In this document: positions 38,166 to 58,518 of the stretch, one piece after another
Numbering within the stretch: position 1 is the stretch's first letter
Layout: every line of letters starts with the position of its first letter
Source of the DNA: Blautia hydrogenotrophica DSM 10507
GTDB taxonomy: Bacteria > Bacillota > Clostridia > Lachnospirales > Lachnospiraceae
NCBI RefSeq assembly: GCF_034356035.1
Contig: NZ_CP136423.1
Span: 2,046,001-2,110,000, forward strand
Direction: 5' to 3'
Length of the DNA stretch: 64,000 bases
The notes under the pieces: model-generated
What the model was told of the DNA's origin: nothing
Seen by the model: the letters and a program-made list of their open reading frames with translations, nothing else
Databases searched by the model: none
Program-made: the position numbers and the translations under genes

Positions 38166-38210
38166 ATTCCATATATAACCGGCAATAGCCTTACATCTGC
38201 TTTTGCAGAA

Positions 38211-39815
38211 TTATTTCACCTTCACGGTCTTCCAGTCGGAATAGGAACCGAAGATCTTCTCACCATTTACCGTGCGGTATGCCCGCATAGTGTAGTAGTA
38301 CGTCTGCCCGGATTTCAGGCCGGTGTCGGTGTAGGAAGTCGTGCTTCCCTTTCCGATCTGGGTCACATAGTGCCATGCCCCATTCTCGGAAGTCTTATAA
38401 TAGATACGATATCCGCTGGCTCCGTTTACCTTATTCCATTTCAGCGCCGCCTTCTTGCTTCCCGCTGTGATCTTCGTAATCACGGATTTCTTAGGCACTG
38501 CCTTGCCGGTCTTTCCAGCCGAATAAGCACCGTAGACCTTGGTTCCGTTCACATTCCGGTAAGCTCTCACATAGTAGGTATAAGTCTGCCCGGTGGTGAC
38601 TGACGTGTGCACATAGGAGGTGCTGCCGGTCTGGGTGGCATATTTCCATGCGGAGTTCCCCACTTTATAGTAGAGACGGTATCCGTCGGCACCGTCCACC
38701 TCATCCCAGGTCACTTTAATGCCGTTATAGCCCCAGGTTTGAGTCTTGCTGACAGAACCCTTGCCCAGCGCTGTCTTCGCCGTCACGTCAGTCACATACT
38801 TGCTGTATACCGGCTCTCCCCAGGTCTTGCTGGCCGCTTTTACCGTATAGTAATAAGTAATCCCTGTCTCTGCAGTTTCGTCCACATAGGACAGCTCTGA
38901 CAAATCCTGAATCCAGGCGATACGCTTGAAGGTCTGTCCTTTCGTCTTGCGGTAGACATAATAGCTCTTTGTGTCCTCGTAGGGTTCCCAGCTGATCTTG
39001 ACGCTGTGGTAGGACAGAGCCTCCGCCTTCACCGCCGGCTTGCCAGTGATAAACGCCTGATATGCCTCTTTCATCTGCTCATAGGTCTCGCGGGCCTTCA
39101 CCAGAGTCTCATAGTTCGTCACCAGCTTCTGGTCTTTCTCAGAGAGGGCCTCATAGGCTTTCTCCGCCTCTGCGATCGCTTTCTCAGAATCCAGCGTCAC
39201 CTCTCCGATGGCGTCGATCTTATCCATCACTTCCTGGATCTCTTCTTTCGCCTGCGCATCCTTCAGTTCTTCCAGAGCTTTCTCCGCCGCCGTCAGCTTC
39301 TCGTAGTTCGTCACTTTCTCTTTCTGCTCTGCGCTCAGGGCTTCATAGGCTTCTCTCGCCTCCTGAATCGCGCCCTCTGACTCCAGCGTCACCTCTCCGA
39401 TGGCATCGATCAGATCTACGACTTTCTGCGCGCTCTGATTCTCTTCCTCCTCCAGTGCATCCATCAGCTCCCAGTAATTGCTGACATAATTCCTGAGTGT
39501 AGGGTCTTCAAAACCGGCCACCGCCGTGTCGTAGGTCTCCTTCGCGCTGACTAAAGCCTCATAGTAACCATCTTCACCTTTCTTGGCCACTGCCGCGTCG
39601 ATGGTATCTTTCAGGGACTGAATCTGCTCTTTTTGCTCCTCGGTAAACTCTGGACGCATGTCGTAGAGGCTGCGCATACCGTTCAGATATCTCCAGGCAG
39701 CGATCATGCCATAGTTCGCCTGGTCTGTGGCCATGTAGTTCCAGCCGCTGCCTAGCAGATGCTCATAGCCGCCGGTATCTACCGCAAAATTCTGAATCGC
39801 ATCGATCAAGGTCAC
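38211..39815 (-). pseudogene. 5'-truncated alpha/alpha-barrel / helical-module / FN3 gene
   Basis: The 534-codon frame lacks a signal peptide and starts at a GTG with no good ribosome site. Its first residues, and the in-frame codons before it (DPLTDERFIKNG), match the last third of the barrel in the 49091-51046 protein (DERFIKDG...). It continues with ATDQANYGMIAAWRYLNGM, the last barrel helix. Two helical modules (IGEVTLES type) and three FN3 domains follow. The 5' half is missing. The frame merges with the end of the LRR_5 gene at about 39842, suggesting a deletion or recombination that joined them. It is the last gene of the operon. If translated, the product would be cytoplasmic and probably non-functional. 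Confidence 0.7.
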
Positions 39816-39841
39816 CCCATTTTTGATAAAGCGCTCGTCCG

Positions 39842-40720
39842 TCAGTGGATCTCTTCCATAGCTTCCCCGTTTTCCACGTATTCCGTCTGCAGCCCGTATT
39901 CCCGGCAGTAGCTGTCCACCTTAGAGCCTCTCTTGCACCGTATTTTCGTACTCTTATTGGTAATCCATTCTCCGATGAATTCCGGGTCGTGGAGGATTTC
40001 CACGACCCGGAGACGGTTGCATCCGTGAAATGCCCATTTCTCGATTCTTCTCACGCTGGGAGGAATCTGAACGGCCGTCAGATTGTTGCACTTAAAAAAC
40101 GCGCTGTTTCCGATAATCTGCAGCTTTGGCGGCAGCCTCAGCTCCTTCAGCCCTGTGAAATAAAAGGCTTCCTCCTCGACGGCCAGCAGCTCCTCCGGAA
40201 ATTCCAGTTCTTCTAACTGCTTGCACCGGTAAAAGGCCCGCCTCCCGATCTTTCTCAAACCTCTGGGAAGCTGCAGAAAAACCAGGCTTGCACATTCCCG
40301 AAAACACTCTTCTTTCAAAATCCGTATCTCACAGTCTTTGGGAAAGACTGCCGTGCACAGCCGGGTACACTCCCGAAAGGCCTCACCGTCCATACGTTTC
40401 AGCGAGTCTGGAAAACGAACCTTGCGAAGATGTACATTCTGTGCAAAGCATCCCTGCATCAGAAATTCTACGGTCTCAGGAAAAAGCAATTCTTTTTCCA
40501 GGCTGCACTTTCGAAACGCATTTTTTCCGATGAATCTGCACTTGGGCGGAAACTTCACTCGTCTTAGCTTTACGTCGTTTAGAAACGCCTCATTGCCGAT
40601 GTAAAGATATTTCTCCGGAATCGTGACACACTTTTCTTTTCTCCCTCTTGGTCCTCCCGTGTATATCACATCCAGCTTATGCATTTTCAACCACAGTTCA
40701 TTTGAAAATTTCCTCTTCAT
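39842..40720 (-). CDS. LRR_5 (BspA-type) leucine-rich repeat protein without signal peptide
   Basis: This 292-aa protein is made of about eight LRR_5 repeats of the form IP...R.IG..AF..C..L (examples: YIGNEAFLNDVKLRRVKFPP and KIGRRAFYRCKQLEELEFP). The N-terminus (MKRKFSNELWLKMHKLDV) is not a signal peptide and no membrane segment is present, so it should stay in the cytoplasm. This is odd for a family usually found on surfaces. It follows the transglutaminase-like gene by 34 bp. The 1011-aa protein also pairs LRR_5 repeats with an alpha/alpha barrel, so this gene and the barrel remnant below it may derive from a similar fusion. Function unknown. Confidence 0.75.
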   Translation of the reverse strand: MKRKFSNELWLKMHKLDVIYTGGPRGRKEKCVTIPEKYLYIGNEAFLNDVKLRRVKFPPKCRFIGKNAFRKCSLEKELLFPETVEFLMQGCFAQNVHLRKVRFPDSLKRMDGEAFRECTRLCTAVFPKDCEIRILKEECFRECASLVFLQLPRGLRKIGRRAFYRCKQLEELEFPEELLAVEEEAFYFTGLKELRLPPKLQIIGNSAFFKCNNLTAVQIPPSVRRIEKWAFHGCNRLRVVEILHDPEFIGEWITNKSTKIRCKRGSKVDSYCREYGLQTEYVENGEAMEEIH

Positions 40721-40754
40721 GCATCACCTATCCCCTGACAGAAGAAGTTCTGTC

Positions 40755-43166
40755 TCAATATAAAAAGTCGATGAATTTCATCCGCAGCTTCTGTCTGATT
40801 CCCACCGTATGTAAAATACGGCTCTGAAGGTCATGGACCACAGCCTCCGTCTCCTGTCGTTCCATGGACGTGATCTCTGCGTCGCTGTAGGCGCTCAGCT
40901 GAATCACATCGATCGCTCTTTGATACCGCTGGGAAAGCTCTTCCCCGAACTTCTCCTCCAAGGTCTCCCGAACCTGGTATCTGGAGCCGTTTCCATCCCA
41001 CAGCTTCACATAGCAGAGCCACCGGACCATATACTGCCCCAGCAGACACACCGCTCTTCGATGGTCCGCCTGCCTGATTTCTCTTAGGTAGGTTCTCAGC
41101 CTCCATCTTCGCACAATCACATAGCCGACCAGTGCCAGCAGCGCCAAGAACACCAGAATCAAAGCACCTGCCAGGAGCCATTTTTTCCAGTCATGGTCTT
41201 TGGACTTTGTCTGCTCCTCCGGCACATCCGGCGTCTTGTCTTGGACATTCTGCGACTGTCCGTCTTCTGCACTTCCTTCCTGTCCTTCATCGCCGATTCC
41301 GCCGTCAGCGACAATCTCATAGTCCGGCCTTTCCATCACATCAAAGTATGGAGGGGTCACTTCCATCGGTACCCAGCCGATTCCGTCCTGATAAATCTCC
41401 ACCCACGCATGGGCCTGCTTGCCGGTGATGCTGATCTCCTCGTAGTCCTCGGTATCTGCCACCAGCTTTGGAGTCACCAGATAACCTTCCACATACCTCG
41501 CTGGGATTCCCAGATAGCGGTACATCATCGTGGCCGCTGTCGCATAGTGCACTGAATAGCCCTGGGAGCGGACTTCCAGCAGATTCTTTAGAAAGTCTCC
41601 AGACTGAAGAGGGGTGATCTTCTCCGAATACTTCAGATTTTTATTCAGATAGGCGGTAATCAGCGTATTCGCCTCCTCATAGGAGGCATGATTCTGTCCG
41701 CTTCTGCGCTCCACATTCAGGTGCGCTCCCAATAGAAGCTCTGTCTCCAGCGGAATCTCCGTATACTGCTCATAGACGAAAGAATTGTAATAGCTCTCAT
41801 CCTCTGTGTAAGTCTTGAATTCCTCGCTGTCTTTTTCGCTGTAAAAACCAGATGCGATCTGCGGGTACTGCTTCACCAGATTTCCCGCTGCCTGATAGGT
41901 GTACACACGACTCCCCATGAATTTCTCTGACTGAAGTCTCTCGTCGCCCACATTCCGTACATCTTCCAGAGATTGTGGCTCTGTCATAAGCTCGTAGGGC
42001 GTGTACAGATATTTGCTGTTCCCATTGACATTCTGCACTGTGACCTGTACGCTCTCCTCCTTCTTGTCCGGGTTCTCCAGCCCATAGAGCGTGGCCATCT
42101 GCGTCAGCCCGTTAAAATCAGTCCTGTGAAGCCAATAGAACAGTTCTCTCTTTTCATACAGCTCTTTTCCCTCGGTCTCTTCCCATCCGGTGGACGTGTA
42201 TGTACTGCCAATAAAACCTCTCAGATACATGGATGTGGGTTCATCCATCACCACTTTCAGAGCTTCTTTATCCGTCAGCTTCAGGTCGCCTAACTTATCA
42301 AACTGCCCCTGGTTAAAGGAGCTGACCGGCTCTTTTTCATAGCGCAGCTCCTGTATGGTAGCCTGCACCTTCTCCTGGAGCCCTGACACGAAGCCCAGCT
42401 TTTGGTATCCGGATTTTGATACGGCCACCTGCAATAGAACTGCCGCCCCGACAAAGAATACCGCTGTCCACACAGCCACCTGCAAAAAGGCCCCACTGCT
42501 TCCCACAGTGGCGTTGGTTTTTTGTCTGGAACCTCTCAGGAAGGAGGTATTCATCGTCAAAATGGCCCCCAGTAGCAGGATTAAGATGGGCCAACTCTTC
42601 GCTCCCATCCCGCAGACCAGCGCCAATATTCCCACCGGCAAAAGCAGCAGAAACAACACGCCATTTTTCTTGCTCTCCGTTACGCTATAACAGACAGCCG
42701 CCAGAAAAATCCCACAGATACCGGTAAACAGCTGATAACAAAGCGGCTGTACATCCGTGGCGGCCGACACCTGATAACCCTCCAGCAGAATTTCCGTGTG
42801 CTGGCCCAGAGCCTTCGTCGCATCGTTGCAGGCCAACAGGAGGCCCTGGTAGACCGGCGTCTGTTTTCCCAGTATCAGCCCCAGGGTCACCAGAAACAAG
42901 ACCCCGGTGATCACGTATCCGCACTTTCGTATCCTTCCGCCCGCCAAAAGCAAAAGAAGCAAAACCACGCCCGGCAGCACCGCCCACCAGGTATAGCTGG
43001 GAAGTTCAAACACAGACAGCAGGGACCAGGCCGCTCCCAGATACAAAAGCAATACCGGAGCCGACAGATTGACTGCTGTCCATATTCGGTTCTTCCCTGC
43101 CGTATGTTCTCTGACAGAGATATGCAGTCCGGAATTTCTTTCTCTCTTTTGTCTCGTCTTACTCAT
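40755..43166 (-). CDS. Transglutaminase-like membrane protein (TgpA/DUF3488-DUF4129 type) with Cys-to-Ser active site
   Basis: An 803-aa protein with an N-terminal block of about six membrane helices (about 30-215), an extracytoplasmic transglutaminase-like domain (about 440-610), one further helix (about 672-695) and a cytoplasmic DUF4129-like tail. In the core, HAWVEIY (His) and WVPMEVTPP are present. The nucleophile position, usually Cys in G(F/Y)C..(H/Y)(F/Y)A, reads GYSVHYA. The serine is codon TCA at 41553-41555, Ser538. A catalytic role as a normal transglutaminase or protease is therefore doubtful. It follows DUF58 by 14 bp in the usual MoxR-DUF58-transglutaminase order. Confidence 0.85.
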   Translation of the reverse strand: MSKTRQKRERNSGLHISVREHTAGKNRIWTAVNLSAPVLLLYLGAAWSLLSVFELPSYTWWAVLPGVVLLLLLLAGGRIRKCGYVITGVLFLVTLGLILGKQTPVYQGLLLACNDATKALGQHTEILLEGYQVSAATDVQPLCYQLFTGICGIFLAAVCYSVTESKKNGVLFLLLLPVGILALVCGMGAKSWPILILLLGAILTMNTSFLRGSRQKTNATVGSSGAFLQVAVWTAVFFVGAAVLLQVAVSKSGYQKLGFVSGLQEKVQATIQELRYEKEPVSSFNQGQFDKLGDLKLTDKEALKVVMDEPTSMYLRGFIGSTYTSTGWEETEGKELYEKRELFYWLHRTDFNGLTQMATLYGLENPDKKEESVQVTVQNVNGNSKYLYTPYELMTEPQSLEDVRNVGDERLQSEKFMGSRVYTYQAAGNLVKQYPQIASGFYSEKDSEEFKTYTEDESYYNSFVYEQYTEIPLETELLLGAHLNVERRSGQNHASYEEANTLITAYLNKNLKYSEKITPLQSGDFLKNLLEVRSQGYSVHYATAATMMYRYLGIPARYVEGYLVTPKLVADTEDYEEISITGKQAHAWVEIYQDGIGWVPMEVTPPYFDVMERPDYEIVADGGIGDEGQEGSAEDGQSQNVQDKTPDVPEEQTKSKDHDWKKWLLAGALILVFLALLALVGYVIVRRWRLRTYLREIRQADHRRAVCLLGQYMVRWLCYVKLWDGNGSRYQVRETLEEKFGEELSQRYQRAIDVIQLSAYSDAEITSMERQETEAVVHDLQSRILHTVGIRQKLRMKFIDFLY

Positions 43167-43180
43167 AGTATTTTATCCCT

Positions 43181-44347
43181 TTAGACAAGCAGCTGATACA
43201 GTGACTCTTCCATGGTATCTGGAGAGAACACCGTATACTCGCCTGCCGTATTTTCCTTTCCATCTTTGCCCTCACGGCAGTGAAGCACACAGACCGAACA
43301 GAATTCCATCATTCTCTTTAACTCTTCCCCTGGCTCCTGTGCCGTCACATAGACGATATGGGCAAAGGGTTTCTCGATATATTCCCTCAGATAATAGTGC
43401 AGACTGCTGTAATCATTTCTGCCCGAAGCCAGCGCCAGCAGCCCGCCGATCATCCCTGTCAGATCGTCCTCTGAGGCAACATTCTCACAGCAAAACCGCT
43501 CCTTCTCCTGGTCATACCAGCCCAGCGCGTGAACATGGCCGCCTCCTGCCAAGGCCTGTGACACCGACAGAAACGCCTCCATCATCGCGCTGCGCACCCG
43601 GGCGGACTCCCGGCGTTTCCCCAAAATTGCAGTCTCATAGATCAGCAGAATGGAATTCTCGATGGGAAGACTCAGCTCTTTCACATAGAGATCATCCATC
43701 TTTCCCGAGAGTTTCCAGTGAATATTTTTCAGGCTGTCCCCGGGCAGATACTCCCGGACGCCGAAAATCTCACTGGGATCGTCGCCTCTTTTCACACTGG
43801 AATAAGTCACACTCTCCCAGTTTGCCGTATCGCTGTCGGTGACTGTCACCTCCATCTGAATGATATCTGGTAGAATTACCACGTGACTCTTCTCCCCTGG
43901 CCTGAGCACAACCTTCCAAAGACCGAAGACATCACTACAGCTGATGGTCTCCAGAACGACCCGGATATTTCCGCAGTACTCACTGGACAGCCCCCACTCC
44001 AGCTGCTGGGTCTTCTTCGCTGAGACCGAACAGTACACGTCCTGTCTCGCTTTCTCCCCCGTCAGACGGTTCTGAAACACCAGATGACAGCCCAGTCTGG
44101 GGAGAGGCAAGAATCCATGGTTTTCCACGCAGAGACTTCCCTTCGCCTCCTGCCCCTTCCCGGCGATGTCCTTGATCTGAAAATAACAGTGAATCTGTCT
44201 TTTCTCCGTCAGCAGCCAAAGTCCGCTGACGAGAGGCAAAATCACACTGACTGCAACCAGAAAACAGGCAATCCAGGAATCTGACCACAGATACAGAAGC
44301 AGCGAGGCCAAAAGCCAGACGATATAATAGACTCTGGATTTTATCAT
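43181..44347 (-). CDS. DUF58 domain protein
   Basis: A 388-aa protein with two N-terminal membrane helices (about 6-45) and the DUF58 signature REYLPGDSLKNIHWKLSGK near 205-223, followed by a vWA-like region. DUF58 proteins are nearly always encoded beside a MoxR AAA+ ATPase and often a transglutaminase-like protein, and are thought to work with the ATPase in assembling or remodelling envelope complexes. Here the gene lies 12 bp after moxR and 14 bp before the transglutaminase gene, in the B12-riboswitch operon. Confidence 0.86.
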   Translation of the reverse strand: MIKSRVYYIVWLLASLLLYLWSDSWIACFLVAVSVILPLVSGLWLLTEKRQIHCYFQIKDIAGKGQEAKGSLCVENHGFLPLPRLGCHLVFQNRLTGEKARQDVYCSVSAKKTQQLEWGLSSEYCGNIRVVLETISCSDVFGLWKVVLRPGEKSHVVILPDIIQMEVTVTDSDTANWESVTYSSVKRGDDPSEIFGVREYLPGDSLKNIHWKLSGKMDDLYVKELSLPIENSILLIYETAILGKRRESARVRSAMMEAFLSVSQALAGGGHVHALGWYDQEKERFCCENVASEDDLTGMIGGLLALASGRNDYSSLHYYLREYIEKPFAHIVYVTAQEPGEELKRMMEFCSVCVLHCREGKDGKENTAGEYTVFSPDTMEESLYQLLV

Positions 44348-44359
44348 CCTCGTTCCTCC

Positions 44360-45289
44360 CTACACAAGCTCAGCCGCCTTCGTCTCTCTCACGATCTCGC
44401 CGATGATCTCCTCTGCGCTGGTATTCGATACCTTTGCACGGGGATGCAGAATCACCCGGTGCGCACAGACACTGACGAAGATCTCCATTACGTCCTCTGG
44501 AACCACATAGTCCCGCCCTTTCACGTAGGCGGCCGCCTTCGCCATATTGTTCACAGCCAACGCACCTCGCGGGCTCACACCCAGGGAAATCAACTCATGG
44601 GTCCTGGTCTTCTCCACGAGAGCGGTGATATATCTCAGGATGTTTTCTTTCACCGTCACCTGAATCACTTCTTGCTGCATATTCAACACTTCTTCTTTGG
44701 ATACCACTTCATGAATTGAGTCTAGAGGCTGCTCTGTCTGACGGTCCTTCAGAATATTGACCTGACTCTCGAAGTCTGGATACCCCATGCTGAGCTTCAC
44801 CATAAAGCGGTCCAGCTGGGACTGGGGCAGCATCTGTGTGCCCGCCGAGCCGAAGGGATTCTGGGTGGACAGCACGGTAAACGGCTGCGGAACCGGATAG
44901 GTCTTTCCGTCCACGGTCACGCTGCCCTCCTCCATGACTTCCAAAAGAGCCGCCTGGGTTTTGCTGGATGTACGGTTGATCTCGTCCGCCAGCAGCAGGT
45001 TGCACATCACGGCTCCTTCTTTGTAGACGAAGCTGTCCGTCTTCTTGTCATAGATGGAAAAACCCACCACATCCGAAGGAATGACGTCCGGTGTGAACTG
45101 GATTCTCTTATATTCCATCCCCAGTGCCTTGCTGAACGCCAGGGCCAGAGTGGTCTTTCCCACTCCTGGGATGTCTTCCAGCAGAATGTGTCCCTTTGCC
45201 AAGATCGCCATCAATACATTTTTGATGACATCCTCTTTCCCTACGATTACCTTCTGTACTTCCTGTACCAAGTTTTCCGTTAAATTCAT
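44360..45289 (-). CDS. MoxR-family AAA+ ATPase
   Basis: A 309-aa ATPase with Walker A GVGKTTLALAFSKALG near 40-55, Walker B LLADEINRTSSKTQAALLEVM near 105-125, sensor 1 STQNPFGSAGTQMLPQSQLD near 140-160, and the C-terminal lid with GVSPRGAL. The MoxR family acts as chaperone-like ATPases that insert cofactors or metals or assemble membrane complexes (MoxR itself supports methanol dehydrogenase). It lies 11 bp after the ECF S-component gene, which ties it to the transporter. Whether it matures the corrinoid system is inference. Confidence 0.92.
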   Translation of the reverse strand: MNLTENLVQEVQKVIVGKEDVIKNVLMAILAKGHILLEDIPGVGKTTLALAFSKALGMEYKRIQFTPDVIPSDVVGFSIYDKKTDSFVYKEGAVMCNLLLADEINRTSSKTQAALLEVMEEGSVTVDGKTYPVPQPFTVLSTQNPFGSAGTQMLPQSQLDRFMVKLSMGYPDFESQVNILKDRQTEQPLDSIHEVVSKEEVLNMQQEVIQVTVKENILRYITALVEKTRTHELISLGVSPRGALAVNNMAKAAAYVKGRDYVVPEDVMEIFVSVCAHRVILHPRAKVSNTSAEEIIGEIVRETKAAELV

Positions 45290-45300
45290 TTTTTCACTCC

Positions 45301-45993
45301 TTATTCATCAAAAATACCGTGCTTTACGCGAACCCGTTCCAGTTTTCGCCCGATCGGCCCCGCCGCCAGCAGCAGAAACACCACATTTGCAGTCATATAC
45401 TCTATCGTCACCGGGGCAGCTCTGAGCATCGCCGCCAGATAAAGCCACAGGTTAAAGGTTCCGTCCATGGACAGAACAGTCCAGACATCCATCAAGGCGG
45501 AGTAGAGAAATCCTGTAAAAATCCCGTATACGATCAGTGCCGGTTTTCTCTTCAGCACGTTTCTCATCACGGGAAGGCCGGCAATCATGCCGATGATTCC
45601 CCAAGCAAACATCTGAAAGGGGGTCCAGGGTCCCTGACCGAAAAACATATTCGAGATGATGGCTGTCAGAGAACCCACCAGAAATCCTGCCTCCGCTCCC
45701 ATATACATCCCAGAGAGAATCACGATGGCTGTCACTGGTTTAAAACCCGGCAGCATGGCAAAGATAAAACGCCCAGCCACGGCCAGAGCCGTCATGACGG
45801 CCAGCAGCACCATCCGGCGGATACTGCCCTCCCGTTTTTCATAGGCATAATAAAAAGGCACACAGGCGGACAGGGCCATGAGTACAGAGATCAGGTTGTA
45901 TCTCCGGTCCTGAAACAGCCGGATTCCCAGCCAGATCAGCCCCAACGCCAGCAGCACCAAAAGTATATTTGTCATCACTCTCCGTCTGCTCAT
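45301..45993 (-). CDS. ECF transporter S component, probably corrinoid-specific
   Basis: A 230-aa membrane protein. After two extra N-terminal helices (about 8-24 and 33-50) it has the six-helix S-component core: MTALAVAGRFIFAMLPGFKP near 68-87, VILSGMYMGAEAGFLVGSLT near 92-111, and FGQGPWTPFQMFAWG near 118-132. S components bind a vitamin and dock on EcfT with the ATPases. Specificity is inferred as cobalamin or another corrinoid, because the whole operon follows a cobalamin riboswitch and encodes transcobalamin-like proteins. The start overlaps the ATPase stop by 4 nt. The protein is not close enough to BioY, RibU or ThiT motifs to suggest those substrates. Confidence 0.85.
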   Translation of the reverse strand: MSRRRVMTNILLVLLALGLIWLGIRLFQDRRYNLISVLMALSACVPFYYAYEKREGSIRRMVLLAVMTALAVAGRFIFAMLPGFKPVTAIVILSGMYMGAEAGFLVGSLTAIISNMFFGQGPWTPFQMFAWGIIGMIAGLPVMRNVLKRKPALIVYGIFTGFLYSALMDVWTVLSMDGTFNLWLYLAAMLRAAPVTIEYMTANVVFLLLAAGPIGRKLERVRVKHGIFDE

Positions 45994-47678
45994 AGCTTCT
46001 TTCTCCCATTCTCCTTACAGAGACCGACCACATCCTCACAGGTCACGACGCCATCGTACATTTGTCTGGCAATTCGATTTGCCGCCGTCGTATAAAAACT
46101 ATTGTCGCAGAAGAATTCTTCCGGGGGGTCCACAGAAGTCAGCTCCCGGTCAAAGAACATTGCGCAGCGATTGGAGACGGAAGCTGCAAACTCCACATCG
46201 TGGGTCACCATCAGGATGGTGATTCCCTCCGACTGCAGCCGTCTCATCAGCTCCATCAACCGGAATTTTGAGTAGGCGTCGATTCCCTTCGTCGGTTCAT
46301 CCAGCAGCAGGAGCTTAGGCTGAAGGAGAAGAATCTTACCAAGGGCCGCCTTTTGCTGCTGTCCGCCGCTCAGATCATAGGGATGCTGGTCCAGCAATTC
46401 TTCGATCTTTAGAAGCTTCGCAATCCTGGCGATCTTTTCTTCCATCTCCTGCTCTGTGTCTCCCATGACTTTTTTCAGCTCATGGTAGTCCTCCCGCACC
46501 GTCTCCCTCAGAAAGACAGACTGTGGATTCTGGGGGAGCAGCCCCAACGTGCCCCGATACAGTTCATTTCCTTTGTAGGATTTTATCTTTTTTCCAAAGA
46601 CTCGGATTTTTCCCCGGTATGCCCGGTTCAGGCCGGCTATCACGCTCAGGAGCGTCGTCTTGCCGGAACCATTGCCGCCCAGGATGCTGACGATCTCTCC
46701 CTTTTTGATCTCCAGCTTCACCCCTTCTAGAATGTCCGGCGTCTCTCTCTCATAGCGGAACCACACATTTTTCAAAAGCAGCGCAGTCTCCTCTCCTGGC
46801 ATGAGCTGCTGAGCCGCTTCCTTCTTCTGCCGCACCTGATTGGTGAAATAGGCGTCCAGAAATTCTCTCCCCTCCCGCACCGTCAGGGGACATTCCGCCT
46901 CCGGCACGTCCAGCGCATTGTATATGCGCACCGCACTGGGCAGACCCACCAGCATTTTGTGGTTCTCCCGAATTTCCCGCAGACGCTTTCCCACAGTCCG
47001 CGGAACATCCCACAGAAGCATCTTTCCCTCTTCCATGACCCCTGCCTTGTCCGCAGCAGGAAATACTTCTTCCAGACGGTGCTCTGTCATCAGAATCGTC
47101 GTCCCCAACTCCCGGTTCAGCTTCACCAACGTACCAATGAAATCGGAAGCCGCTATGGGGTCCAGCTGAGAGGTCGGTTCGTCCAGAATCAGCAGTTTCG
47201 GCTGCATAGCCATGATGGAGGCCAGGTTTAGAAGCTGCTTCTGTCCGCCAGACAGATGGTGAGTCTCCTTTCGGAACCATTCGTCGATGCCGAAAAAACA
47301 GGCCATCTCCCCAACTCTCCGGCGTATCTTTTGCTGGGGAAGCCCCATATTTTCCAGGCCAAAGGCCAATTCATGCCACACTTTATCCATCACAATCTGA
47401 TTCTCTGGGTTCTGCATCACAAAACCAATCTCGCAGGCCGCCGTGCGTTCGTCCAGCTCCTGCTGAGGACATCCCAGATAGGAAATTTCACCGGTTCTCT
47501 CCCCGTGAGGTGCGAGTTCTCTCTTTAGCAGACGCAAAAGCGTCGTCTTTCCGCAACCGGACTCTCCGCACAGTACCACGAATTCTCCGCTGTTAACTGT
47601 AAAAGACACCTGCCGCAAAGCCGGTTTGTCCTGTCCTGGATACGTAAAACTCAGATTTTCGACTTTAAGTAATTCCAT
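45990..47678 (-). CDS. ECF transporter fused double ATPase (EcfA-EcfA')
   Basis: A 562-aa protein with two complete ABC ATPase domains in one chain. The first has Walker A GESGCGKTTLL near 37-47, signature HLSGGQKQ near 144 and LLILDEPTSQLDP. The second has GGNGSGKTTLL near 333, DLSGGQQQ near 438 and LLLLDEPTKGID. It would power the ECF energy-coupling module with the adjacent EcfT. The fusion replaces the usual EcfA1/EcfA2 pair. It starts 28 nt inside the end of the EcfT gene with a good AAAGGAG site. Confidence 0.93.
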   Translation of the reverse strand: MELLKVENLSFTYPGQDKPALRQVSFTVNSGEFVVLCGESGCGKTTLLRLLKRELAPHGERTGEISYLGCPQQELDERTAACEIGFVMQNPENQIVMDKVWHELAFGLENMGLPQQKIRRRVGEMACFFGIDEWFRKETHHLSGGQKQLLNLASIMAMQPKLLILDEPTSQLDPIAASDFIGTLVKLNRELGTTILMTEHRLEEVFPAADKAGVMEEGKMLLWDVPRTVGKRLREIRENHKMLVGLPSAVRIYNALDVPEAECPLTVREGREFLDAYFTNQVRQKKEAAQQLMPGEETALLLKNVWFRYERETPDILEGVKLEIKKGEIVSILGGNGSGKTTLLSVIAGLNRAYRGKIRVFGKKIKSYKGNELYRGTLGLLPQNPQSVFLRETVREDYHELKKVMGDTEQEMEEKIARIAKLLKIEELLDQHPYDLSGGQQQKAALGKILLLQPKLLLLDEPTKGIDAYSKFRLMELMRRLQSEGITILMVTHDVEFAASVSNRCAMFFDRELTSVDPPEEFFCDNSFYTTAANRIARQMYDGVVTCEDVVGLCKENGRKKL

Positions 47679-51046: not shown

Positions 51047-51051
51047 CACTG

Positions 51052-53178
51052 TCACCACTCTCTCTCCCAGTTTCCGATCGCCTCGTCTTCGTTGGTACCA
51101 TTTCCTAGAGCACCTGCTCCGCCGATATCCGCGCCGTAATACAGAGTAAACCGAATCCGAATCTCATTCCCATCCTGGAGAATGCAGTCTGCCATAGAGT
51201 AATTGGGGTACACGCCGTCCACGCTGTACATCCAGCCGGAACCTACGCAGAAGTCAAACTCTCCCAGGCTGTTCGTGTACCACCTCATGGGATAGACATC
51301 CTCCGCCGACTGCTCATTGATCTCCAGAAGATGTGCCTCCAGGTCTTCTGGAACCACAGGGTTCAAGACGAAATCCCTGCCGTCTTTGTCCATGATATGT
51401 GCCAGATAAAAATCGGATTCCACATCTCCCGTGTACTCAGGCGCATAATTGTTGGCATCCAATACCTCCAATAGAACCTCAGAAAGCCTCTGGTCCCTCG
51501 TAATCTCCACCTGAGTCGGCGCCACCAGATAACCGATTCCTATAGTGGTGGCCTCCACTGAGAGTGTGATGGTTCCTGTCACTTCCTCCTCTGGAGGCGT
51601 GTAAGTGATGGAATAGTTCTGTTTAAAGACATTTCCGTCTCCATCGTCCACTTCCACATAGATGGTATTCGCGCCTTCTCTCAGGTCTGCACTAAAGCTC
51701 ACTTCTCCGTCGTTTGGCCACAGCACATCACATTCCACGCCATTGCACACGGCGCGAATCTGTGAAGCCGGCAGATCTTCTCCCCGGCAGTTCTGTGCGT
51801 ACACGGTGAAGCTGAGCGGAGAATTGTTCACGGTTCCATTGTGATAGGATTCCAGCTCTGGACAGCTTACAATGGGTCGGTCCGGGTTGTCCGGGTCGTC
51901 GCCCCCGTCCCCGTCAGATTTCTTCTGGAAGGTGATGGTGTACTCCTGGGTATCCCCTCGTTCTTCCCCGTTATGGGGAGTGATGGTGAAGGTGTTCGCC
52001 CCGTCTTCCAGAATCACTGCATACTGATTGGGCTCCGTGGGTTCTATCTCTGTCCCGTTCCAGGTGACTGTCACCTCCACCTGGGTGCTGCCCTGGAACC
52101 CGTAGGCGTCGAACTCAAAGGCACGGCTCTTCACCGTCTGGTTGTTTCGCTCTGCCAGATTGGTCTCCACCTTAAACTGTTTCTCGATGGGAATCTGATA
52201 GGTCAGGGCATAGCTATCATCGGCCTTTCGGCTGCCCTTTTCCGCGTGCAGATGGATGGTATTCTTTCCCTCTGCCAATGTCACGGAATACTGTCCGTCC
52301 GGCTCATAGGAAACCTTCTGGGAACCGCTTTTGTTTTCCAGTGTCACCTGAAGCTCCACGTCCTCGCCGGCACATTCTGCTTTTGCCTCGAAATTCAGGA
52401 CTTTCTCAGTCACTGTGGTGCCTTCCACTTGGACCAGATTGCTCTTGATGATAACGTCTGTCACGTTCACATACAGGGTGTAGGATTTTTGCACATCGAA
52501 GCTCTTTCCATCCTTGCCTATATAGGTGACTTTGATTACTACCGTGTTTTCCCCGGTGTCCAGGTTTAGTTTTCCGTCAAACTGCGTAAACTTTCCCTTG
52601 TTGACTTTCTCCTGTATGGTTTTCACTTCCAGGTCTGTCAAGTGGGTGATTGTATATTCATACTCCCGGTCCGTCAGCGTATCCCCGTCCACGATGCTGG
52701 TTCTAAAATACGCTTCTTTCTCATCGTTCTTGTCATCACCTGCATTTTTGTCTTTCTTAGGTTTGTCTCCCTGGTTGCTTCCCCGGTTATCCTCATTATT
52801 TCCCTCGTCGCCTTCCCGGCCGCCAGAGCCGTCCTGGGAAGTATCTCCCGTATTGTTCTCTGACTTGGAATTTTCCTGATCTTTATTGTCTTTGTTCTCT
52901 TCCTCTGACTCCTGCTGATCCTCTTTGTTTTCTTCCGCCCGATCGTTGGCTCCGGCGAAGGATTCCGCCACAGTCTCCTTCAGCCCGTCCAATTCCACCA
53001 GAGAACGGTCATCAGAAATTCCGTCGATGGGATTGTCCATGTCGGCGGCTGCCTGTGTCCTCAAGGTTCCAAAAATCGTGCTACAAAACAAAACCACAAC
53101 GAGCAGTCCGAGGACTGCCGCTGTGATTTCGCGATGTTTTTTTGTAAATAACTGAATTTTCCGCAATAATTCATTCAT
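51052..53178 (-). CDS. Membrane-anchored Ig-like / DUF4430 protein
   Basis: A 708-aa protein with an N-terminal membrane helix (about 19-40) that probably stays as an anchor, and a disordered acidic linker rich in Glu, Asp, Asn and Lys (about 70-155). Three or four beta-sandwich modules of the cadherin/Ig-like kind (about 160-520) contain LDTGENTVVIKVTY, LAEGKNTIHLHAE, LEDGANTFTITP and LREGANTIYVEV. The C-terminal DUF4430 domain (about 536-694) contains GIGYLVAPTQVEI, GSGWMYSVDGVYPNYSM, LQDGNEI and GADIGGAG. The DUF4430 domain is close to that of the 1824-aa secreted protein. It lies 17 bp after the barrel giant and 5 bp before the next barrel gene. Confidence 0.86.
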   Translation of the reverse strand: MNELLRKIQLFTKKHREITAAVLGLLVVVLFCSTIFGTLRTQAAADMDNPIDGISDDRSLVELDGLKETVAESFAGANDRAEENKEDQQESEEENKDNKDQENSKSENNTGDTSQDGSGGREGDEGNNEDNRGSNQGDKPKKDKNAGDDKNDEKEAYFRTSIVDGDTLTDREYEYTITHLTDLEVKTIQEKVNKGKFTQFDGKLNLDTGENTVVIKVTYIGKDGKSFDVQKSYTLYVNVTDVIIKSNLVQVEGTTVTEKVLNFEAKAECAGEDVELQVTLENKSGSQKVSYEPDGQYSVTLAEGKNTIHLHAEKGSRKADDSYALTYQIPIEKQFKVETNLAERNNQTVKSRAFEFDAYGFQGSTQVEVTVTWNGTEIEPTEPNQYAVILEDGANTFTITPHNGEERGDTQEYTITFQKKSDGDGGDDPDNPDRPIVSCPELESYHNGTVNNSPLSFTVYAQNCRGEDLPASQIRAVCNGVECDVLWPNDGEVSFSADLREGANTIYVEVDDGDGNVFKQNYSITYTPPEEEVTGTITLSVEATTIGIGYLVAPTQVEITRDQRLSEVLLEVLDANNYAPEYTGDVESDFYLAHIMDKDGRDFVLNPVVPEDLEAHLLEINEQSAEDVYPMRWYTNSLGEFDFCVGSGWMYSVDGVYPNYSMADCILQDGNEIRIRFTLYYGADIGGAGALGNGTNEDEAIGNWEREW

Positions 53179-53195
53179 ATGCTTTCACTCATCCG

Positions 53196-56100
53196 TTACT
53201 TTGTAATTTTAAGGCTTCTCGCTTTCGTATAGGAACCAAAAGTATTCTTTCCATTGACTTTGGACATCGCGCGCACCTTGATATAGTAGGTCTTCCCTTT
53301 TTGTAGACCGGTGATCGTCTTATTCAAAGCCGTCGTGTTCACGATCTTCTTACCTTCATTAAATTTCAGGTTCGTGGCTATGACAATCTGGTATCCATAG
53401 GCGCCTTCCGCCTTTTCGCTCAGGCTGACCGTCATCGCTTTGCTGGAACTATTGGTAATCTTGCTGACCACAGGCGTGGCCGGTATCGTCAAAGCCACCT
53501 TCTTCACTGAACTGTAAGAACCATATACTTTGTTTCCGTTGACATCTTTCGTGTAAGCCCTTTCCTTCACATAGTACGTCTTGCCAGTGGTAAGACCAGT
53601 GATAGTCTTTGCCGAGTATGCTGTATATACGCTCACCGGATTGCTCATACTGCTGCTCGTGGAGTAGACAATCTGATAGCCGTCTGCACCGGATATCTTC
53701 GAGGTGAGCGTCACCTTCATGCTTCCATTGGCCGTGTTGGTGATACTCTTAATGGTTGGTTTTCCCGGTGCCGCTGTGAGCTTAATGCTGCGCATAGTGG
53801 TGTAGGAGCCGAAGGTGTTCTTTCCGTTGACCTTGGACATCGCACGCACCTTGATATAGTAAGTCTTGCCGGCCTGAAGACCAGTGATAGATTTCGTCGT
53901 CGCCGTAGTATTTACCGTCTTCTTTCCAGTAGTAAATTTTGTATTTGTGGCAACCACGATCTGATAACCATATGCCCCTTCCGCTTTCTCTTTCAGGCTG
54001 ACTGTCAGCGATTTGTTGTCCTTCGTGGTGATCTGGCTAATCACCGGCTTCGCCGGAATTGTCAGAGTAACTTTCTTTGCCGTACTGTATGAGCCGTAGA
54101 TCTTATCCCCTGTGGAATCCTCCGTATATGCACGCACCTTCACATAGTAAGTCTCCCCTGTGGTGAGACCGGTAATAGTCTTATAAGAATAAGCGGTGTG
54201 AATGCTCACTGCGTCAGACATACTGCTGTTGGTGGAATAGACTACCTCGTAGCCATCCGCACCGGTGACTTTCTTACTCAACGTCTGCTTCATCGTGCCG
54301 TTGGCCGTATTCTCCAAACTCTTGATGGTCGGTCTTCCCGGCGCCGTCACCTTCGTCCATTTTGCATAGAGCGTGTAATCCTTCGCGCTGCCTTTCTGAA
54401 TCTTTGTGATTCTATTCTTGTATTTCGCGTCTGTGTACCAGCCGTCAAATTTGTAACCTGCCCTCGTGGGGTCTTTCAAGGTAACGGTCCACGGGCCTGT
54501 ATAACCGGGGGTATTCTCGCTGTTGTTGGTGCCGCCGTTCAGCACATAATCGATGGCATAGGGATATACTTTCACTTCGCAGCTCTCACTGAACGTCCCC
54601 ACTGTAGCTGTGATCGTAGCATCTCCGCCACCCACTGCAGACACCTTGCCATTGTCAACCGTTGCCACTTTCTTGTCGCTGGTACTCCACACAACTTCTG
54701 GATACTCTGAAGAATCTTCTGGCAGATACCCCACCTTCAGATAACTGTACTGTCCTTTTGCGAGGCTAATGGAAGTCTCACTGAGCGTGATTCCCTCTAG
54801 AGGAGTCTTCACATGTACCTGGCAGATCGCCGAAAGTTTTCCCACCTTCGCAAGCACTGCCGCCTCTCCATTTCCTACCGCTGTCACCACACCATTTTCC
54901 ACAGTAACAATATCTGGATTGCTGGTACTCCAGGTCACCGTCTTATCACTGATGGTGTCTTCCGGGTCATAGTTGACTGTGAGACTGTGATTCTCCCCTG
55001 GCTTCAATGTGATAGATATCTCGCTCAAAGTGATTTTTTTCAATACCAAGCTGTACAGCCGGTCATACTCGGTACGGGCATCCTTCAGAATTTGAAGTGT
55101 CTCAGCTGAGACATACTTCTTCTGTTCCTCTGTCAACGCCTCATAGGCTTTTTCTGCTTTCAGGATTGCGCTCTCACTTTTTAGTGTCACTTCACCGATT
55201 GCCAGGATTTTCTCTGTCACCTTCTCCGCTCTCTGATAATCATATTTTATGACTGCAAGTGCATTTTCCGCATCTACCAGAACCTGGTAATTCTCTACCA
55301 GAGCTTTCTGCTCCGATGTCAGTCTCTGATATTCCGTTCTAACGGATGCCACATAATCGGCAGAGTCCAAAGTCACCTCACCGATCTGCGCGATCAATTC
55401 GTCCACCTGCGCCGCCAGCTCCACATCTGCCTTCAGCTGTTCCAAATCCATCTCCAGCTTCACCAGAGAGAAATAGTTCTCCACGAGAGCCTGCTGAACC
55501 ACAGTCAGCCCATCAAAGGCTTCCCTCACCGCCAGAAGTTCCTCTTCCTGCTCCAAGGTGATCTCCCCGGAGAACGCTGCGATCTGTACGCTGACATCCA
55601 TGGCAGCCGCGTAATCCTCTTCCCCCATCTGTTCCTGAGCCAACTCATACAGAACATTCAACGCTTCTTCCATGCGAGCCACTTCCTGCTGGTCGATCAT
55701 GCCTTTTTCGTCGCTGGGAAGTGCAATATAAGCCGCTTTCGCCTGTGCCGCCAACTGGAAGCTGTCGTCTTCCAGGCTTAACTCTTCCGGTATCTGTGCA
55801 ATCAGTTCCTGCACATTGGCGATTCGCTCTGCCTGCTCTTGAAGGGCAGTCAGGGCCGCCTCGGCATCTTCCAGAACACCCACGTAATAGTCGCTGATAT
55901 AGGCTTTCTGGCTCTCGGTCAGATCATTGTAGGCCATACGGGCTTCCAGTATCGCTGTCTCTGACTCCAAGGTCACTTCCCCGATATTCTTGATCTGTTC
56001 TTTCACTGCTTCCGCCGTCTCTTTGTCCAATACCAGAATCTCCAGGGTCGCCTCTGCTTCCACCAGCTTCTCGTAATTGGTAATCAACTCTTTCTCTTCA

Positions 56101-58157
56101 TCCGTCAGGGCATCGTACTCTGCTCTGGCCTCTTCGATCACTTCCTGCTGTTCCAAGGTAATGCTGTCTCCCAGGTTGTCAATCAGACTGATGACCACTT
56201 CCGCCGCATCCATACTCTCTTCCAGTTCATGGAGTTCCTCTTCTGCCGCCACCAGAGTCGAATAGTACAGCTTGCAAGCACCGTCTTCTTTTTCTGCCTC
56301 CGTCATACTGTCATAGAGCGCTCTCGCCTTCTGGATGGTGGTCCGGTCAGACATGGTAATGTTTCCAATCTCCAACTTGGATACATAGGAACCGAACTCA
56401 CTGATCTTGTCATAGATCAGCGTCCACTTCGCATAGAACGTCTTATCTCCATAGCTACCTTTTTCCAAAACTTTTACCGGTTTCCCCTCAAAATCAGCAT
56501 TGGTGTACCATCCCTGGAAATCATAGCCTTCTCTGAAAATCTCCTCCGCAGTCGGCAACTCCCAGTCATCATCCATCGGAGTATAGGTATCCGGAACAGT
56601 CACGTCTTCTGCCAATTTTCCGCCATTCAGCTCCAATGTCAAATCAAACACCACATCGCCGTACATCGCGTAGAGCGTAATATTTTCTTCCGGCATGGAG
56701 AGTACCTCTCCCGGCCAGTATGTCGTCCCGCTGCCGTCCGGCTCGCTGTTCCAGCAGACAAACGCCTCCTCGTCAGAAGGCTCCCCGGCCGTGATGTTCA
56801 CCTCCGCATAGGGAGAATACGTCTCTGTCTTGGCCTCTCCTGCCCCATTCCCGTCAAAGGTGATGGTATAGGAGACCGGAGTCATCTCCGTATAACTGCC
56901 ATCCGTCATATCTGTCATATCATACAGGGGGTTCTCCCCATTCAGAAATCGGTCGTAAGCAATCAGTCCGTACAGCGCTTGATCTGTAGCCATACCGTTT
57001 ACGTCATGTCCGGCTCCTCCGCCGCCATCGTTGCCGGAGACTACATGTTTAAATCCGCCCACAGCCTCTGAGGAACCACTGTTCTTTGCCCAGAAACTGA
57101 GCAGTGCATCCACCATGTTGTTGGACCAAACACCGTCCACCACATTTCCGGTCGTCACAAAGCTGCAGCTCTTCCCGATATTCTCCAGCTCAATGGATTT
57201 TGCCAGGGGATCGATACCCAGCGCAGTCAATGCCACCAATACCTGTACGGTGGATTCTGAATTGATGTTGCTTCCCCAGCCTCCGAAACCACCGTTGGAA
57301 CTTTGCATCTGATACAGGCTGTAGACACCTCTCTCCACTGCCTGGACGAACTCTCCATAGGGAGTCTCCGCGCCTGTAGCGATATATTTTTCTTCATCCA
57401 GATAATAGGGAGCCAACGCCTGCAGTGCCATACCTGTGATATCCACATCCGCACTGTTTCCGGCGGAAGCGAGATTCAGCACCCATCCCCCAATGGTATT
57501 CTCAGAATCTCGAATCTCAGATCTCATAATGTAATCTAGCATCCTGCCCTCGGTATTGATATCCCCTTCCTCATAAGAAGAGGGGGGCTCATAGAGTTCG
57601 TAGCCTCCCGTGTTCAGGGCAATCAACTCCCAGATCGGTCCATTCAGCCCCTGCCCATAGGAATATTTGTAAGACTGGGACAGAATATCAATAAAATCAT
57701 AACCTCCCACATCGTAGACGCTTTTTCCCAGAGCAGACAAAGCCAACATTAGACGAGAATACTCCGTGGACTTGGACTTGTCCAGCACTCCCTCTCTCTC
57801 AATCACTTCCCCCACTGCTCTTTCATAATAGTTCTCAAAATAATTCTCCGGTATGTAATTCAGATAATCCAGGCCTGTGTACATCCCCCTCAGCAGGTCC
57901 ATGACTGTCCAATCACCGGAATTTGTGCCATATCCTGGCTCCTGCACGGTCTCCAACTCATAGCGGGCTGCCGCATTAATGTAGAAACGAATTCCCGGCG
58001 CCTCATTTTCCCAGAATCTCAGTTCCGAGAATTTCTTGCTGTCAGATGCGTCCCACGCACCTGCGAAAATACTGGTCACTGAAGCCGGCACCACCAAAAT
58101 ACAGGCCAGAGAAAACGCCAGTATTCTCTTCCAAACCTTATCCTTTCTTTTTTTCAT
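53196..58157 (-). CDS. Giant secreted alpha/alpha-barrel protein with InlB, Big2 and FN3 modules, first gene of the B12 operon
   Basis: A 1653-aa exported protein. The start at 58157 (MKKRKDK) has GGGAGG 5 nt upstream and gives a signal peptide ending near SIFAGA. An alpha/alpha barrel at about 35-425 contains GGWVLNLASAGNSADVDITG, MALQALAPYY, GGFGGWGSNINSESTVQVLV and ATDQALYGLIAYDRFLNG. Two InlB B-repeat modules (about 430-580), seven 60-aa helical modules of the IGEVTLESE...ALTEEQK type (about 580-1040), two Big2 domains (about 1040-1200), one more InlB repeat and four FN3 domains (about 1270-1653) follow. It follows cobalamin riboswitch 4 directly. The barrel resembles the transcobalamin alpha domain. 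No membrane or sortase anchor is seen. Ligand binding is inferred. Confidence 0.86.
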   Translation of the reverse strand: MKKRKDKVWKRILAFSLACILVVPASVTSIFAGAWDASDSKKFSELRFWENEAPGIRFYINAAARYELETVQEPGYGTNSGDWTVMDLLRGMYTGLDYLNYIPENYFENYYERAVGEVIEREGVLDKSKSTEYSRLMLALSALGKSVYDVGGYDFIDILSQSYKYSYGQGLNGPIWELIALNTGGYELYEPPSSYEEGDINTEGRMLDYIMRSEIRDSENTIGGWVLNLASAGNSADVDITGMALQALAPYYLDEEKYIATGAETPYGEFVQAVERGVYSLYQMQSSNGGFGGWGSNINSESTVQVLVALTALGIDPLAKSIELENIGKSCSFVTTGNVVDGVWSNNMVDALLSFWAKNSGSSEAVGGFKHVVSGNDGGGGAGHDVNGMATDQALYGLIAYDRFLNGENPLYDMTDMTDGSYTEMTPVSYTITFDGNGAGEAKTETYSPYAEVNITAGEPSDEEAFVCWNSEPDGSGTTYWPGEVLSMPEENITLYAMYGDVVFDLTLELNGGKLAEDVTVPDTYTPMDDDWELPTAEEIFREGYDFQGWYTNADFEGKPVKVLEKGSYGDKTFYAKWTLIYDKISEFGSYVSKLEIGNITMSDRTTIQKARALYDSMTEAEKEDGACKLYYSTLVAAEEELHELEESMDAAEVVISLIDNLGDSITLEQQEVIEEARAEYDALTDEEKELITNYEKLVEAEATLEILVLDKETAEAVKEQIKNIGEVTLESETAILEARMAYNDLTESQKAYISDYYVGVLEDAEAALTALQEQAERIANVQELIAQIPEELSLEDDSFQLAAQAKAAYIALPSDEKGMIDQQEVARMEEALNVLYELAQEQMGEEDYAAAMDVSVQIAAFSGEITLEQEEELLAVREAFDGLTVVQQALVENYFSLVKLEMDLEQLKADVELAAQVDELIAQIGEVTLDSADYVASVRTEYQRLTSEQKALVENYQVLVDAENALAVIKYDYQRAEKVTEKILAIGEVTLKSESAILKAEKAYEALTEEQKKYVSAETLQILKDARTEYDRLYSLVLKKITLSEISITLKPGENHSLTVNYDPEDTISDKTVTWSTSNPDIVTVENGVVTAVGNGEAAVLAKVGKLSAICQVHVKTPLEGITLSETSISLAKGQYSYLKVGYLPEDSSEYPEVVWSTSDKKVATVDNGKVSAVGGGDATITATVGTFSESCEVKVYPYAIDYVLNGGTNNSENTPGYTGPWTVTLKDPTRAGYKFDGWYTDAKYKNRITKIQKGSAKDYTLYAKWTKVTAPGRPTIKSLENTANGTMKQTLSKKVTGADGYEVVYSTNSSMSDAVSIHTAYSYKTITGLTTGETYYVKVRAYTEDSTGDKIYGSYSTAKKVTLTIPAKPVISQITTKDNKSLTVSLKEKAEGAYGYQIVVATNTKFTTGKKTVNTTATTKSITGLQAGKTYYIKVRAMSKVNGKNTFGSYTTMRSIKLTAAPGKPTIKSITNTANGSMKVTLTSKISGADGYQIVYSTSSSMSNPVSVYTAYSAKTITGLTTGKTYYVKERAYTKDVNGNKVYGSYSSVKKVALTIPATPVVSKITNSSSKAMTVSLSEKAEGAYGYQIVIATNLKFNEGKKIVNTTALNKTITGLQKGKTYYIKVRAMSKVNGKNTFGSYTKARSLKITK

Positions 58158-58300
58158 AGTATCCTCCCTAATTAAATTAAAAATATAGTTTTCCCAACAG
58201 AAACAACCCTCTGCCAATCCTGTGGAAAACATTTGTCTCAGCTGTTTTTAGACACGAAAAAAAGCATATCTCTTCCGCCCAGAAATATCTCTTTTTCTCC

Positions 58301-58468
58301 ATTACGGCAGGTCTCCTGACTTCGCTTCCTCCTCGAAAATACCTTCCCAGATATAAATCCAGTGGCTTTATATTTTCTCGTCCACGTTACAGTAGTGGGG
58401 ACTGTTCCGGATTTTCACCGGATTCTCTTTTCATCCTTTGTCTGTTCAAAGACAAAGAAACCGTAAAT
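58301..58468 (-). promoter_or_regulatory. Cobalamin riboswitch 4 (canonical)
   Basis: A P1 stem (TTTACGG / CCGTAA) encloses GGTGAAAATCCGGAACAG, CTACTGTAACG, GCCACTGG, TGGGAAGGTA and GTCAGGAGACCTGCC on the minus strand, which is the full consensus. The leader to the first gene (58158-58300) has a T-tract at about 58261 but only weak A/T pairing ahead of it. The switch could act by a weak terminator or on translation. Confidence 0.95.
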
Positions 58469-58489
58469 CTCACCTATTAATCTGCATAA

Positions 58490-58518
58490 AGTATAACATA
58501 AAACTGTTTTAAAGTAAA
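58490..58518 (-). promoter_or_regulatory. Sigma-A promoter for the riboswitch 4 operon
   Basis: TTTACT and TATACT are separated by 17 nt on the minus strand, about 20 nt ahead of the riboswitch P1 stem. It lies immediately past the stop of the YbaK-type gene. Confidence 0.68.

Follow-up and report, generated by a model that had tools for sequence, protein, structure and literature searches.

Blautia hydrogenotrophica DSM 10507 carries an operon of twelve genes behind a cobalamin riboswitch, located on the minus strand of a 64,000-nucleotide (nt) stretch of contig NZ_CP136423.1 (positions 2,046,001–2,110,000). We refer to this whole stretch as the window and number it from its first letter. 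The operon combines genes for two types of protein domain, an alpha/alpha toroid and the beta-grasp domain DUF4430, with genes for an energy-coupling factor (ECF) importer. A preliminary description had reported this riboswitch and its twelve tightly packed genes. Both are real, and the coordinates and gene list given there proved correct against Pfam, the list of open reading frames (ORFs) and a toroid profile. The elements are as follows, with transmembrane (TM) helices called by a simple hydropathy window.

58490–58518, minus strand: promoter-like site, TTTACT-17-TATACT with TG before the −10 (consensus match alone)
58289–58480, minus strand: cobalamin riboswitch aptamer (RF00174), covariance match, 113.4 bits, E 1.2e-27
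53196–58232, minus strand: gene 1, secreted giant of 1678 amino acids (aa), toroid at 84–445, List_Bact repeats, Big_2 and fn3 (Pfam and toroid profile)
51052–53178, minus strand: gene 2, 708 aa, N-terminal TM anchor 18–36, cadherin-like/Glucodextran_B beta domains, C-terminal DUF4430 558–689
49091–51058, minus strand: gene 3, 655 aa, hydrophobic segment at the N-terminus, alpha/alpha toroid 38–385, C-terminal TM helix 603–621
48525–49094, minus strand: gene 4, 189 aa, N-terminal TM helix 8–26, DUF4430 beta-grasp 86–180
47651–48571, minus strand: gene 5, EcfT of the CbiQ family (Pfam)
45990–47678, minus strand: gene 6, fused double EcfA ATPase (Pfam double ABC ATPase)
45301–45993, minus strand: gene 7, S component of the ECF importer, related to CbrT, with one additional TM segment at the N-terminus
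44360–45289, minus strand: gene 8, MoxR-type AAA ATPase (AAA_3, Pfam)
43181–44347, minus strand: gene 9, DUF58 protein (Pfam)
40755–43166, minus strand: gene 10, transglutaminase-like membrane protein, Transglut_core, TgpA_N just under cut-off
39842–40720, minus strand: gene 11, LRR_5 protein with no TM segment found
38211–39815, minus strand: gene 12, probable remnant with the end of a toroid followed by fn3 repeats
38124–38157, minus strand: terminator-like hairpin of 14 pairs just 3′ of the last operon stop (consensus match alone)

The aptamer matches positions 1–189 of the RF00174 model in full, well above the gathering score of 31.5. The promoter-like site is followed directly by the aptamer; nine such sites occur in 53000–60000, against a mean of 6.8 in shuffles (standard deviation (sd) 2.5). 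The leader from the aptamer to the start codon folds no better than shuffles (z −1.17). Behind the riboswitch, the twelve minus-strand ORFs run from 58232 down to 38211, and the successive spacings are +17, −7, −4, −47, −28, −4, +11, +12, +14, +34 and +26 nt. We counted 25 promoter-like sites (shuffles 19.9, sd 4.3) and 24 terminator-like sites (shuffles 15.8, sd 3.5) across 35000–54999; set against the shuffles, such matches to a consensus can neither establish nor rule out starts or stops inside the operon. We infer that genes 1–12 form a single transcript.

Gene 1 probably starts at the internal Met26 (~58157), which by eye lies just ahead of a signal peptide. Gene 12 begins 26 nt past gene 11, and its match to the toroid profile (50 bits) is limited to profile positions 258–315 of 316; a signal peptide was not seen by eye, and a TM segment was not found with the hydropathy window. 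Since only the end of the toroid is kept and the signal peptide is missing, gene 12 is probably a remnant and not a working gene.

The importer and its candidate capture proteins

The S component identifies the importer. Its best match in the PDB is 6FNP chain A, with E 1.5e-11 for the single sequence and 1.1e-15 for a profile of 18 relatives, while the next chain, 4hzu_S, reaches 0.47 and 1.2e-4, respectively. 6FNP is ECF-CbrT of Lactobacillus delbrueckii, for which dissociation constants of 9.2 nM for cyanocobalamin and 36 nM for cobinamide, and import of both, are reported (PMC5997447). CbrUVT also serves as a vitamin B12 uptake signature in published reconstructions (PMC8123684, PMC6593275). 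Judged by its sequence, gene 7 belongs to the CbrT family of S components, and the operon contains an energising unit made of the CbiQ-family EcfT and the double ECF ATPase. BtuFCD was considered as a riboswitch-linked importer and rejected: the genome has three FecCD permease genes, none in the window, and all three lie >36 kb from any of the seven cobalamin riboswitches found in the genome.

The host also has many genes for making corrinoids. The NCBIfam cut-offs are exceeded by matches for cbiD, L, F, H, J, E, T, A, P, B and cobD; for cbiK, cbiG and cbiC, the matches stay under the curated cut-offs. Corrinoid uptake in this host would be salvage or competition. These genes bear on what the natural cargo is. 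The machine may be read correctly and yet serve another corrinoid, such as cobinamide, pseudo-B12 or a cobamide of neighbouring cells, which the late cbi/cob genes of the host would remodel. The presence of corrin ring genes together with the late genes cbiB, cobD and cbiP favours this possibility, as does the uptake of cobinamide by CbrT (PMC5997447), whereas the riboswitch class responds to cobalamin forms (PMC11477304). We consider such a different cargo possible, but rather unlikely.

The other half of the proposed system consists of the toroid and DUF4430 proteins. DUF4430 (PF14478) scores above the Pfam cut-off in genes 2 and 4 and in the ORF at 13449–18950. For the toroid, Pfam lists only Prenyltrans in gene 3, at 22.1 bits and under the cut-off, and nothing for gene 1, while a profile grown on relatives matches gene 3 with 405 bits and gene 1 with 208 bits. 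In the window, the two domains are encoded by the separate genes 3 and 4 and not by one chain. Among the relatives, we found 22 single-chain ORFs with both domains, 16 of which have the order toroid-TM-TM-DUF4430, that is, the alpha toroid followed by the beta-grasp domain as in animal transcobalamin, intrinsic factor and haptocorrin. In L058, L061, L070, L040 and L042, DUF4430 precedes the toroid in one chain, which is the reverse of the animal order.

One fused relative, the L047 ORF at 1743–3401, was used for structure comparison. Its predicted structure has a predicted local distance difference test (pLDDT) value of 83.0. In a Foldseek search against 350,542 PDB chains, the best 12 matches are all transcobalamin, intrinsic factor or haptocorrin, with E values from 1.6e-7 to 1.4e-6, while the next family follows at 5.3e-5. 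The structural alignments to the animal carriers are full-length, at 10–13% identity. Additionally, the L047 model has a beta-hairpin behind the beta-grasp helix (helix 468–478, strands 483–486 and 495–499); such a hairpin marks the transcobalamin-like clade in the published domain description (PMC1796856). The split form in the window and the relatives fused through a TM hairpin point to a carrier tethered to the membrane next to the importer. The animal carriers differ in both respects, since the present proteins are membrane-tethered and the halves in the window are separate genes.

Sequence searches of the PDB with the toroid, DUF4430, gene 2 and the fused profile did not list transcobalamin, and terpene cyclases were listed for the toroid and the fused profile. 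The VIA fold lists for both models (50 rows) contained no B12 carrier, an absence that is not evidence. The toroid protein has at least 1,866 matches among database proteins; those that bear a name are frequently called prenyltransferase/squalene oxidase repeat or terpene cyclase. Taken at face value, these names would make the toroid proteins enzymes, whether terpene cyclases, prenyltransferases or glycan lyases; the best fold matches of the toroid are such enzymes, and a profile match to cyclases reaches E 8.8e-13. However, the toroid proteins carry an N-terminal export-type segment and membrane anchors, and their genes are linked to B12 riboswitches and ECF-CbrT. The motif of class II cyclases is DxDD, in place of which these toroids keep D-x-D-[IVL]-T. 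Moreover, once DUF4430 is attached, B12 carriers head the fold ranking. An enzymatic role is thus highly improbable, and the public names are probably misleading for this toroid group, which we read as part of a transcobalamin-like carrier.

Gene order in relatives and the cobalamin island

To place the operon among relatives, named genomes were scanned with an alignment of the S component, and the best 80 of 560 relatives were compared. These loci are a non-random sample, in which some share an assembly (L021 and L030) and related loci cannot be counted as independent; the same 80 loci also served to grow the toroid and DUF4430 profiles. Sixty-nine loci have at least 5.5 kb upstream of the S component. 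Counting genes on the same strand within 9 kb of it, DUF4430 is found in 68/69 of these long loci, toroid and DUF4430 together in 64/69, and EcfT and EcfA in 68/69 each; the loci without a toroid match are L028, L043, L067, L081 and L094. The record titles include Lachnospiraceae, Oscillospiraceae, Kurthia, Lysinibacillus, Viridibacillus, Siminovitchia, Tissierella, Anaerosalibacter and Syntrophaceticus. In L067 (Enterococcus ureilyticus), a CbrT-like S component stands with EcfT and EcfA, a toroid was not found and DUF4430 occurs only downstream; a whole-genome search of this organism found no cobalamin riboswitch. L026 (Anaerovorax sp. IOR16) contains the toroid-DUF4430-EcfT-EcfA set twice in a row, with the second copy truncated where the locus ends, and has three cobalamin riboswitches.

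A second sample consisted of 80 genomes of the window's family, evenly drawn from a larger group (thresholds E 1e-20 for the S component and E 1e-4 for DUF4430). The S component is present in 18/80, and DUF4430 occurs in 18/18 genomes with the S component versus 20/62 without it (Fisher p 9.5e-8, relatedness ignored). The two lie within 6 kb of each other in 17 of the 18 genomes, and on different contigs in the eighteenth. In the 20 genomes with DUF4430 and no S component, the matches mostly fall in short open frames of 123–254 aa, with one of 613 aa (G106).

Riboswitches were searched in the relatives with a covariance model, R1, built from 12 cobalamin riboswitch sequences; it is mostly a sequence model, whose 133 positions include 17 base pairs. 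R1 gives 46 matches in 40/80 loci at a threshold of E 0.1, all 46 on the operon strand, and 32 matches in 29 loci at a threshold of E 1e-10. Five of the 12 training sequences come from five of the 40 positive loci (L026, L032, L042, L045 and L062), which leaves 35/75 for the training-free loci. Most matches (42/46) lie at most 500 nt before a same-strand ORF, with a median of 143.5 nt. Among the 69 long loci, 39 have an R1 match upstream of the S component (one only at E 0.025) and 30 have none; in several of the 30, the gene set reaches the edge of the stretch examined. Rfam reported Cobalamin in 6/14 loci submitted, and two weak R1 matches among these 14 (L041 and L054) are not among the six. 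When 50 source genomes were searched whole, 45 had a cobalamin riboswitch at E 0.001 and 41 had one that passed the cut-off. A home-made regular expression found 3/4 window copies, 0 of 3 in L002–L004 and 1 in the 80 loci, and was replaced by the covariance model.

Genes 8–10 of the operon, encoding MoxR, DUF58 and the transglutaminase-like protein, are adjacent and co-directed. Genes 8–12 could be passengers, with the trio sharing the transcript and serving another envelope process. The full trio occurs in only 10/80 loci, and it is known in other settings without B12. On the other side, MoxR follows the S component closely, at −11 to +87 nt, in the nine loci with the trio behind S and in L040, whose contig ends inside MoxR; in the tenth trio locus, L075, the trio is placed between the toroid and EcfT. 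This linkage recurs across Bacillales, Lachnospiraceae, Syntrophaceticus and Anaerosalibacter by record title, with L021 and L030 from one assembly. With these points on either side, we give the passenger explanation a little less than an even chance.

The operon is not the only cobalamin-riboswitch unit in the window. Downstream of it, three more riboswitches and the surface proteins behind them were found.

35214–35396, minus strand: second cobalamin riboswitch, 80.3 bits
31976–35011, minus strand: surface protein with LRR_5, toroid (304–613), Big_2 and fn3, behind the second riboswitch
28997–31789, minus strand: surface protein with a PQQ-like beta-propeller and fn3, next after 31976–35011
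28578–28766, minus strand: third cobalamin riboswitch, 74.1 bits
19599–28313, minus strand: surface giant of 2904 aa with an fn3 end, behind the third riboswitch
19118–19304, minus strand: fourth cobalamin riboswitch, 73.7 bits
13449–18950, minus strand: surface protein of 1833 aa with DUF4430 514–643, nine Big_2 and fn3, behind the fourth riboswitch

The putative propeller at 28997–31789 matches Pfam PQQ_2 at 29.1 bits, barely above the cut-off of 27.6. The last 290 residues are 52–81% identical among gene 12 and the four downstream surface proteins (n=5 compared). Because four riboswitches lead surface proteins and the C-terminal ends are shared, these ~45 kb look like one cobalamin-governed surface-protein island. 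The single riboswitch of the preliminary description is thus a canonical copy ahead of the operon as stated, but it is only one of four in the window and of seven in the genome. The island contains every match found in the 3.6-Mb genome for the toroid-protein profile (six, at E 0.01 or better) and for Pfam DUF4430 (three); at E 1e-5, the toroid and DUF4430 profiles gave no match in the other loci of the genome (71.8 kb, ~3 kb counted twice) or in the window outside the island.

Between the operon and the second riboswitch, 35397–38210 is a stretch of low G+C content (37.5% versus 48.6% for the window) with three ORFs without a Pfam match, and by eye a short piece at 37918–38085 resembles a decayed fn3 end. 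A search for phage families in the three ORFs at 36123–37848 gave nothing useful. Among the three riboswitches outside the window, one precedes cbiM, cbiQ, cbiO and cbiK. In two further loci of this genome, with genes named by eye, a 112.8-bit cobalamin riboswitch stands ahead of genes resembling ABC exporters and of an ABC importer of the peptide/nickel type (L008, 1776000–1789000), and a 90-bit one lies upstream of a metallo-beta-lactamase-like ORF (L010, 2756000–2769000). The closest named protein matches, among those listed, come from Ruminococcus gauvreauii, Robinsoniella and Blautia.

Proposed mechanism and relation to known systems

Based on sequence and model comparisons, the operon is most likely a corrinoid-repressed uptake operon, in which split transcobalamin-like capture proteins would feed ECF-CbrT. 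When cellular cobalamin is low, the riboswitch would permit expression; cobalamin riboswitches have been described as OFF switches (PMC11477304). Toroid and DUF4430 proteins, either secreted or tethered to the membrane, would then capture a putative corrinoid ligand outside the cell. Specifically, gene 3, anchored by its C-terminal helix, would provide the alpha half and gene 4, anchored by its N-terminal helix, the beta half, so that the two may meet on the membrane as a split transcobalamin closing around one corrinoid. Another DUF4430 would come from gene 2 and another toroid, in a more outward position, from gene 1. The ligand would be handed to the CbrT-type S component, with EcfT and the fused EcfA predicted to power import, and genes 8–10 might assemble or attach surface proteins.

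The capture and import parts of this mechanism are well supported by comparison, because the CbrT-type S component, the structural match of the toroid/DUF4430 protein L047, the gene order, the same-strand riboswitches and the co-occurrence all point the same way. To this extent the corrinoid scavenging machine of the preliminary description stands, and genes 1–7 can be read as a single machine; the inclusion of MoxR, DUF58, transglutaminase, LRR_5 and the remnant is not supported beyond the linkage of their genes. The proposal can be taken further, with the long form of the operon encoding a single surface organelle devoted to corrinoid piracy. Several toroid and DUF4430 proteins, some on wall-spanning fn3/Ig/LRR stalks (Ig, immunoglobulin), would make up a chain of split transcobalamins that relays corrinoid across the wall to the S component, and the trio would be a dedicated machine for their assembly or covalent fixing. 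This extended version is speculative and more doubtful than the uptake operon itself.

The capture apparatus had been called little described, a view that is not supported. Burroughs, Balaji, Iyer and Aravind defined the SLBB superfamily in 2007 (PMC1796856), and their paper reports toroid-SLBB fusions in either order, for example in Desulfotomaculum and Bacillus. It also describes partner domains of the Ig and beta-propeller types, paralogues that occur in pairs, and operons in which CbiO- and CbiQ-like genes are present. The authors predicted B12 scavenging by low-GC Gram-positives and proposed a transfer of the toroid-SLBB combination to animals. Since these authors foresaw it, the core of the present finding is a published prediction. 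No test of that prediction was found in the literature searched, whose coverage leaves out most subscription journals. Likewise, nothing relevant that connects a cobalamin riboswitch with the transglutaminase or another partner gene was found among the papers listed, in searches that did not include the term MoxR itself. A proteome table names a lipoprotein as part of a putative ECF transporter for cobalamin (PMC9963975).

The present system shares with the 2007 SLBB systems the toroid and the transcobalamin C-terminal domain, the surface location, a second paralogue, Ig-type and beta-propeller partners, and CbiO/CbiQ. Unlike here, the passages of the 2007 account on these systems name no S component, no TM-hairpin fusion and no MoxR-DUF58-transglutaminase set; the word riboswitch has 0 occurrences in its text, while the present operon is riboswitch-led. 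The hosts described there usually lack key enzymes of B12 biosynthesis, whereas the present host has many such genes (PMC1796856). With ECF-CbrT and the predicted CbrTUV, the operon shares a homologous S component, a unit of EcfT and EcfA, and presumed import of B12 and cobinamide. It differs in having its own fused EcfA and EcfT in the operon, where ECF-CbrT uses a shared module, in having candidate extracellular capture proteins beside them, and in the extra N-terminal TM segment of the S component. The arrangement also resembles BtuG, BtuH and BtuJ of Bacteroides, which capture B12 at the surface ahead of a transporter and belong to riboswitch-regulated loci (PMC6143338, PMC8941943, PMC13398666). 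BtuG is a seven-bladed beta-propeller that binds B12, and the window also has a putative propeller (28997–31789); the Bacteroides proteins have other folds and work with BtuB at a Gram-negative outer membrane (PMC6143338, PMC8941943, PMC13398666).

Together, the observation is real, conserved and functionally coherent, and mostly foreseen. What is added over the 2007 account is the link to CbrT, the link to riboswitches in many genera, the split and TM-hairpin forms, the closely linked MoxR-DUF58-transglutaminase trio, the four-riboswitch island of 45 kb, and the many corrinoid-synthesis genes of the host. Many toroid proteins now named prenyltransferase or terpene cyclase may be B12 capture proteins. 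If the surface organelle exists as outlined, it would serve, in a cell with its own corrinoid-synthesis genes, competition for the cobamides of other cells. Finally, animal-type carriers tied to a CbrT importer and riboswitches offer a direct test of the 2007 idea that animal transcobalamin came from low-GC Gram-positives, and L047, as a fused and compact relative, would be a convenient protein for testing that transfer.

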